Part shown: piece by piece, positions 31,718 to 32,695 of the stretch | Position numbering within the stretch: position 1 is the first letter of the stretch | Layout of the letters: every line of letters begins with the position of its first letter | Translations under genes and position numbers: made by a program | Assembly (NCBI RefSeq): GCF_024298825.1 | Contig: NZ_CP101153.1 | Coordinates: 2,046,001 to 2,110,000 of the forward strand | Direction: 5' to 3' | DNA from: Haloglomus salinum | GTDB lineage: Archaea; Halobacteriota; Halobacteria; Halobacteriales; Haloarculaceae | DNA: 64,000 nt | Notes under the pieces: model-generated | Told to the model about the DNA's origin: nothing | Seen by the model: the letters and a program-made list of their open reading frames with translations, nothing else | The model's database searches: none

Positions 31718-32695
31718 GTGCGCGAGTACGCCTTCGAGCTGGCTCTCTGTGCCCACTACGAGTCCGAGACGGATGGGCTCCTCGCACGCCAGCTCGGCGC
31801 CTCCTGCCACGGCTCGCGCGTGATGGACGTGGTCGAACTGGAGCCGGGGCCGGGGTTCGACGGGCGCGTCTCGCTCTGCCCGGGGACGATTCCGGCGCCG
31901 GTCCTTGAATCCGACATCGGGCCCGGCACCGCGCGGGCCCCGCGGCGGGCGCTCGATGTCCACCCGGACCGCGTCGAGGGCATCGTCGACGCGGCGGTCG
32001 ACGCGGGCTACCTCGAACGCGAGCGCCGGAACGGGCGCGAGATGGTGCGGGCGACGGGTCGCTACCCGGACGAGTGGCTCGGCTCGCTCCGCGGCATCGA
32101 GAACAAGCCCGACCTCGGGCGCCCCGGTGACCTCCAGGAGCAACTGCGGACCGACGTCTCGCTCGCGCTCCTGGACGAGGTGGTACTCGCGACGGCCTCG
32201 CACGTCACCGGGGCGCACCTGAACCGCATTCCCGAGGCCGTCGGCGTGTGGCGGTTCGACCCGGAGACGGGCGAGCGGGAGGTGGTGCGGGAGCCGACGC
32301 CACTCGACGACGAGTGGGGCGTCGAGCCGCTGGACGAACACCCGGGCCGGACCGAGGTCCGCGTGGTGTCGGCCGCCGAGAAACGCCGGGCGCGGCGCCG
32401 CCTCGCCGAGCGCGCCTTCGGGAAGGGCTGGCGGCCCGCCCCCGAGGCGTGGCCGGATTGTGCCCGCATCGCGGTCGGCGAGCGCGGGGGGACGGGCCCG
32501 GTGCCGGACTGCCCGTGGAAGGGCCGCATCGTCGACCCGGCCGCCGAGTGTGGCCCGGCGTGCGAGGGGTTCGTTTCGGGTGCAGCGCCCTCCGTCGACC
32601 CCGAGAGCGCCCGTGCTGACGCGACCGCCTGGGACCCCGACGCTGGCGAGCGCCGGCGGCAGACGGGGCTCGGCCGCTTCGTCGACCCGGAGTGA
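31718..32695 (+). CDS. DUF5787-type protein with nuclease-like core and C-terminal cysteine cluster
   Basis: A 325-residue protein starting at GTG. I recognise it as a haloarchaeal DUF5787 homologue. The middle region carries GIENKPDLG (E128 and K130), followed by a helix with DLQEQLRTD, which is what the second half of a PD-(D/E)XK nuclease active site looks like. The C-terminus contains four cysteines (C248, C265, C278, C282) that could bind zinc or an iron-sulfur cluster, as in Cas4/AddB-like nucleases. Catalysis is untested and the assignment is by eye. It is divergent from mch. Confidence 0.78.
   Translation: MREYAFELALCAHYESETDGLLARQLGASCHGSRVMDVVELEPGPGFDGRVSLCPGTIPAPVLESDIGPGTARAPRRALDVHPDRVEGIVDAAVDAGYLERERRNGREMVRATGRYPDEWLGSLRGIENKPDLGRPGDLQEQLRTDVSLALLDEVVLATASHVTGAHLNRIPEAVGVWRFDPETGEREVVREPTPLDDEWGVEPLDEHPGRTEVRVVSAAEKRRARRRLAERAFGKGWRPAPEAWPDCARIAVGERGGTGPVPDCPWKGRIVDPAAECGPACEGFVSGAAPSVDPESARADATAWDPDAGERRRQTGLGRFVDPE

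Follow-up and report, generated by a model that had tools for sequence, protein, structure and literature searches.

What does a gene do that is present in two copies in nearly every haloarchaeon examined, and is therefore likely to matter, yet is known by a DUF number only? This question is raised by a DUF5787 gene at 31718..32695 (+ strand, as are all the features given below) of the window, i.e., the whole 64,000-nucleotide stretch of DNA that was analysed. The open reading frame, as proposed in the first-pass annotation, is real. It starts with GTG and encodes 325 aa, the stop codon being included in the coordinates, and its homologues start at the same residue: a GTG-type codon read as V is found in 38 of the 40 A-type (window-type) sequences, the window copy included. 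Residues 21-285 match the Pfam family PF19100 (DUF5787) with a score of 299.7 bits, where the gathering cut-off is 25 bits, and all 38 family members examined match it as well. In Pfam the family is listed simply as one of unknown function, none of the NCBIfam models matched the window protein, and the word DUF5787 was not found in the literature searched. Among the solved structures, there was no direct homologue of the window protein (best E 1), nor any homologue of the combined profile of copies A and B described below (best E 0.51). The divergent neighbour of the gene is mch, which encodes methenyltetrahydromethanopterin cyclohydrolase (PF02289), and an arylsulfotransferase-like gene (PF14269) lies downstream. 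The reading preferred here is that DUF5787 is probably a haloarchaea-specific PD-(D/E)XK endonuclease with a split core, an inserted winged helix and a metal-bound cysteine tail, which serves as a housekeeping protein in repair or genome maintenance.

A protein search found DUF5787 in 387 of 391 Halobacteria genomes; the four genomes that gave no match measure 1.9 to 2.3 Mb and come from two families of the order. When PF19100 was run over 294 genomes of the phylum, 53 showed a match, 52 of them above the cut-off, and all 52 lie inside the order. There, 52 of 53 genomes are matched, and in each of these the matches cover at least two stretches, namely copy A, of the window type, and a diverged paralogue, B. 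Outside Halobacteria, no credible relative was found among the 294 genomes. The lone non-haloarchaeal match, in genome G579 (E 2.9e-4, below the cut-off, profile positions 206-276), was rejected as a relative; it falls within a 664-residue ORF, which, from its motifs, we take to be a methionyl-tRNA synthetase that has a zinc region rich in cysteines. Haloferax volcanii is the sole one of 14 named control genomes with a PF19100 match. Viral contigs gave 18 pattern matches, none of them a DUF5787 relative, and a single plasmid record was matched with the query used. The A-type and B-type sequences share about 29-35% identity, and the B copy of the window's own genome is located at C1:3039379-3040242. 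A and B are two ancient DUF5787 paralogues, retained by nearly all Halobacteria. The best matches to the window protein are weak in three genomes (G205, G310 and G377; E about 1e-17 to 1e-21), where perhaps only the B-type copy was found.

Which residues have been held constant in both paralogues? After removal of identical proteins, 75 sequences were compared, 40 of A-type (window included) and 35 of B-type. Twelve residues are invariant in all 75 (E15, R24, Q25, R34, D37, R50, E128, N129, K130, Q142, D146 and D153), along with four cysteines, C248, C265, C278 and C282. The first-pass annotation had singled out the four cysteines and a GIENKPDLG segment containing E128 and K130, and had named their conservation as a check. 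The segment is indeed at residues 126-134, with DLQEQL following it, the cysteines are where they were said to be, and all six residues passed this check. Since E128, N129, K130 and the four cysteines are kept in every one of the 40 A-type and 35 B-type sequences, despite the roughly 29-35% identity between the types, their conservation is not a matter of chance. The invariant E15, D37, Q142 and D146, the inserted winged helix and the paralogue itself go beyond that annotation.

These residues can be laid out along the motifs of the PD-(D/E)XK superfamily, the definitions of which are taken from a passage of PMC1913061. Motif III, the conserved (D/E)-x-K, is present as E128-x-K130 (E128-N129-K130, 32099..32107). 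A polar residue is expected in the helix after it, and Q142 occupies such a position, with D146 also invariant; the stretch from Q142 to D146 (32141..32155) is the candidate motif IV helix. D37 (31826..31828), in the sequence RVMD, or RRWD in most B-type proteins, is a candidate for motif II. E15 (31760..31762), in the first predicted core helix, may be the acidic residue of motif I, by analogy to the motif I of Hjc as described in that passage of PMC1913061.

The first lead to a relative was the NCBIfam sce7726 model NF033832, which five of 38 DUF5787 members match weakly (best E 0.013), with residues 120-190 aligned on profile positions 47-116. The curated cut-off of 70 bits is missed, the only listed score being 14.7 bits (homologue L068). 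For profile comparison by hhalign, sce7726 members were drawn from plasmids and archaeal genomes, with 13 in the main comparison. The A-type profile matched them with a probability of 89.7, an E-value of 1.9e-6 and a score of 51.3, against at most 22.3 in 100 column-shuffles. Similarly, A and B combined gave E 6.6e-6 and a score of 48.6 (at most 20.0 in 100 shuffles), and an independent comparison of the combined profile with 11 sce7726 members gave E 4e-6. B alone scored weakly, at 25.8 against a null maximum of 20.6. Eight neighbour families served as controls; they scored 12.0 to 28.2 against A (the highest, 28.2, being DUF5797), 13.8 to 21.9 against A and B combined, and 11.3 to 18.2 against sce7726. 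With a mostly viral set of 52 sce7726 sequences, from which the archaeal relatives L177 and L179 were left out, A scored 44.6 (34.4 in 60 shuffles) and the combined profile 41.0 (25.3 in shuffles), while B, at 15.3, remained below its shuffle value of 22.9. The B profile also found no match in A9, an alignment of 35 of the 41 extracted viral sce7726 proteins. Narrower sce7726 sets returned the same register, with only 3-4% probability.

The homologous part is the nuclease core segment of residues 122-210 (32081..32347). In this register, E128-x-K130 falls on the E-x-K of sce7726 and Q142 on its near-invariant Q, and the helix-strand step and a P..G segment coincide too. At the level of profile comparison, the link of the A-type protein to the sce7726 family (NF033832, which includes the P4 cII and Rac phage proteins) is firm; the B-type would inherit this kinship through its clear homology to A. 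DUF5787 differs from sce7726 in its inserted winged helix and its four-cysteine module, whereas the C-terminal helices of sce7726 found no matching counterpart in DUF5787.

The argument then depends on what kind of protein sce7726 is. Its structure was predicted from a phage sce7726 protein with 34 relatives, and the model reached a pLDDT of 92.7 and a pTM of 0.87. The order of its elements is helix 3-18, strands 25-32, 37-44 and 48-54, helix 63-73 and strand 76-82. The invariant D40 lies on strand 2, E52 and K54 on strand 3, and Q66 on helix 2, so that D40, E52/K54 and Q66 are placed as expected of motifs II, III and IV. Foldseek returned no match for the model below E 0.001; its first row was SfsA (4dav, E 0.011), which a passage of PMC1189080 treats as a predicted PD-(D/E)XK family. 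The best VIA structural match was 3dnx (SPO1766), with Z 10.2, an rmsd of 3.4 and 130 aligned residues. It was followed mainly by chains of restriction enzymes, EndoMS, Can2/Card1, Bax1, VRR-NUC, XisH and Hjc, although acetyl-CoA carboxylase accounts for two of the 50 rows of this PDB comparison, middling Z values being common by this method. As 3dnx is presumably an MmcB/DUF1052 protein, the MmcB family (PF06319, DUF1052) is tied to DUF5787 in two steps, via this match of the sce7726 model; PF06319 itself matched neither the DUF5787 members nor anything in 120 genomes of the phylum. By sequence, sce7726 found no match among the solved structures, and against NucS and Cas4 profiles it showed no similarity beyond that of shuffles. 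Therefore, its assignment to the superfamily rests on the model and the motifs.

On the model, the sce7726 family, P4 cII included, looks like a PD-(D/E)XK nuclease. The cII protein of phage P4 (NC_001609.1 2013-2489, H54) is annotated as a sce7726 family protein. The homology of the E-x-K half to sce7726, together with the PD-(D/E)XK arrangement of the sce7726 model, makes the reading of DUF5787 as a PD-(D/E)XK nuclease well supported. The proposal in the first-pass annotation that GIENKPDLG resembles the E-x-K half of such a site is thus borne out. The fold of DUF5787 itself would follow from this kinship; its own structure prediction, from a three-row alignment of the window protein and two close relatives, did not succeed (pLDDT 32.0).

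If the core is shared, what separates its two halves? Across the 75 sequences, D37 and E128 lie 88-93 residues apart in A-type and 94-95 in B-type proteins, against 11 residues between the R-x-D and the E-x-K of sce7726 in 41 of 41 viral sequences. Most of this gap is an insertion between motifs II and III, at about residues 46-121 (31853..32080). Within it, residues 72-104 (31931..32029) resemble a winged helix in hhalign comparison with 29 haloarchaeal MarR_2-like winged helices. The A insertion matched these at E 8.5e-6, with a score of 31.0, where none of 100 shuffles exceeded 12.9. The B insertion scored 23.0 (14.5 in 100 shuffles), the combined insertion 27.9 (13.8 in 100 shuffles) and the full A profile 30.7. 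From this match and the difference in gap length, motifs II and III appear to have a winged helix threaded between them. A new observation, at the sequence level, is that the roughly 75 residues between D37 and the E-x-K match a MarR-type winged helix. Insertions that form DNA-binding subdomains are usual in the PD-(D/E)XK superfamily, according to passages of PMC1189080 and PMC1913061.

When the insertion was cut out, the alignment with sce7726 extended N-terminally, and R34..D37 came to lie on the R-x-D. The A score rose from 51.3 to 56.5; this gain is not evidence for motif II, since 16 of 100 N-terminal shuffles equalled it. For A and B combined against the 13-member set, none of 100 N-terminal shuffles was as good, while in the other four settings 10, 27, 50 and 60 of 100 were. 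The register of D37 with the sce7726 D thus beats the shuffles in one of six settings, and the case for D37 as motif II is made mainly by its invariance and its position.

A winged helix and four cysteines are usual in regulators, and no activity is known for DUF5787. The protein could, therefore, be a non-cleaving member of the fold, i.e., a DNA-binding regulator or a structural repair factor, in which the winged helix binds and the cysteines sense metal or redox state. This is nevertheless unlikely, as all 75 sequences, from two ancient paralogues, keep every candidate catalytic residue, and a dead enzyme would not need them.

The genomic neighbourhood was compared at 12 A loci and seven B loci, with flanks of about 4 to 6 kb. 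Near the A copy, eIF2-gamma and a metallo-beta-lactamase gene were each found at seven of the 12 loci, an arylsulfotransferase-like gene at four and mch at three. In other haloarchaeal families (L067, L068 and L075-L079), eIF2-gamma is close to the A-type gene, in a stretch where a PIN-domain gene and an Rpb7-like gene were also named. Near the B copy, DUF5797 is present at all seven loci and a NUDIX gene at six. The surroundings of both copies are of the housekeeping kind. These neighbours admit another enzyme, one that acts on RNA and is tied to translation or transcription, since eIF2-gamma is near the A copy at seven of 12 loci, often along with the PIN-domain and Rpb7 genes. Such a role is quite improbable: the A copy in the window's own genus sits elsewhere, near mch, the B copy sits with the NUDIX gene and DUF5797, and the winged helix and the sce7726 kinship favour DNA. 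At the B loci (L063, L065, L066, L069, L072, L074 and L182), the DUF5797 and NUDIX genes, the latter annotated as tetraphosphatase, are regularly close by; the B-type DUF5787, DUF5797 and the NUDIX gene possibly make up a functional group.

The cysteine tail raises the question of a metal-binding module (C248, C265, C278 and C282; 32459..32563). Its spacings in the 75 sequences are 12-19, 11-12 and 3 residues. The nearest cysteine pattern found is that of DUF7140 (11 sequences), which a profile of the B tail matched at E 3.4e-6; its score was 32.6, where none of 100 shuffles exceeded 19.5, and the combined tail scored 28.5 against 18.8 in shuffles. The A tail alone was marginal, at 18.0, with one of 100 shuffles as good. 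The Pfam model of DUF7140 (PF23601, cut-off 27 bits) is matched below its cut-off by nine of 38 DUF5787 members (best E 0.0014), and at E up to 10 the window protein is not among its listed matches. The two share C..F and PYC in register, whereas in DUF7140 an additional cysteine comes first and one is missing ahead of the last. The similarity suggests that the DUF5787 tail and DUF7140 may share a small metal-binding module for zinc or an Fe-S cluster. DUF7140 is itself a 42-residue cysteine domain, which ends a membrane-like haloarchaeal protein of about 300 residues (L160-L174; G000:C1:1342368-1342493).

It had been suggested in the first-pass annotation that this tail could hold a metal or Fe-S cluster as in Cas4/AddB nucleases. 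Like Cas4 (PF01930) and RecB/AddB (PF12705), DUF5787 has the superfamily signature, E-x-K and then a helix with a Gln, as well as a group of C-terminal cysteines. C11, moreover, lies roughly where Cas4 has its first cysteine and is nearly conserved (36 of 40 A, 33 of 35 B, 69 of 75 in all). A Cas4/AddB-like nuclease with a 4Fe-4S cluster lock is, however, very improbable. Against 15 haloarchaeal Cas4 sequences, hhalign gave scores of 13-14.5, and 44 to 73 of 100 shuffles were as good. None of the 38 DUF5787 members has a Pfam match to Cas4, or, at E up to 10, to the RecB/AddB-type PDDEXK_1 (PF12705). Further, the Cas4 alignment has one N-terminal and three C-terminal cysteines, whereas the four invariant cysteines of DUF5787 are all C-terminal, and C11 is replaced in five of the 75 sequences and gapped in one. 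The suggested likeness to Cas4/AddB did not hold up. DUF5787 showed no similarity to the NucS profile either.

That annotation had also left a choice between repair and defence. A search with PADLOC found nothing for the window protein, and other members weakly match two families there (best E 0.034); PHROGs gave 15 weak, unspecific family matches. A defence nuclease against viruses or plasmids, which the occurrence of sce7726 relatives on phages and plasmids and the PD-(D/E)XK fold of restriction enzymes might recall, is scarcely credible for a near-universal family with at least two copies per genome, housekeeping neighbours, no PADLOC match for the window protein, no relative found on viral contigs and the single plasmid record. 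The repair half of the proposal stands as plausible. Both paralogues, with all their key residues, are kept by nearly all Halobacteria, and this speaks for a housekeeping role in repairing DNA or maintaining the genome.

How, then, would the PD-(D/E)XK endonuclease work? Its core would be split, with E15 and D37 (motifs I and II) before the winged helix and E128-x-K130 and Q142 (motifs III and IV) after it. The winged-helix segment would bind DNA duplexes and bring them to the active site. There, D37, E128 and K130, assisted by E15 and Q142, would keep the Mg2+ or Mn2+ and the attacking water in place. A zinc ion or an Fe-S cluster, probably structural or in contact with the DNA, would be bound at the four C-terminal cysteines. 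The A and B paralogues may serve in repairing DNA or maintaining the genome, perhaps in partnership. Such a concrete catalytic prediction is directly testable in Haloferax volcanii, which has the family. If it is true, two nucleases are added to haloarchaeal repair, and the superfamily acquires an architecture whose active-site halves flank a winged helix.

A bolder extension can be entertained tentatively, though it is rather unlikely. A and B would form a heterodimer, an unnamed MmcB/sce7726-like repair endonuclease with a threaded winged helix and a metal-bound tail. It would act on damaged or branched DNA, e.g., cross-links or stalled-fork structures, and would partly explain the tolerance of radiation and desiccation.

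A passage of PMC9578287 describes MmcB of Caulobacter as a PD-(D/E)XK endonuclease under SOS regulation. On a Hymenobacter plasmid, a sce7726 gene (L181 1501-2085) adjoins umuD and is near a Y-family DNA polymerase gene. The role of MmcB and these neighbours give a hint of DNA damage, and neither concerns DUF5787 itself. In Rhodococcus, Sinorhizobium and a Rac phage (L184, L188 and L196), the sce7726 gene overlaps with a convergent one, whose annotation is “beta family protein” or beta, and the two possibly constitute a two-gene unit.
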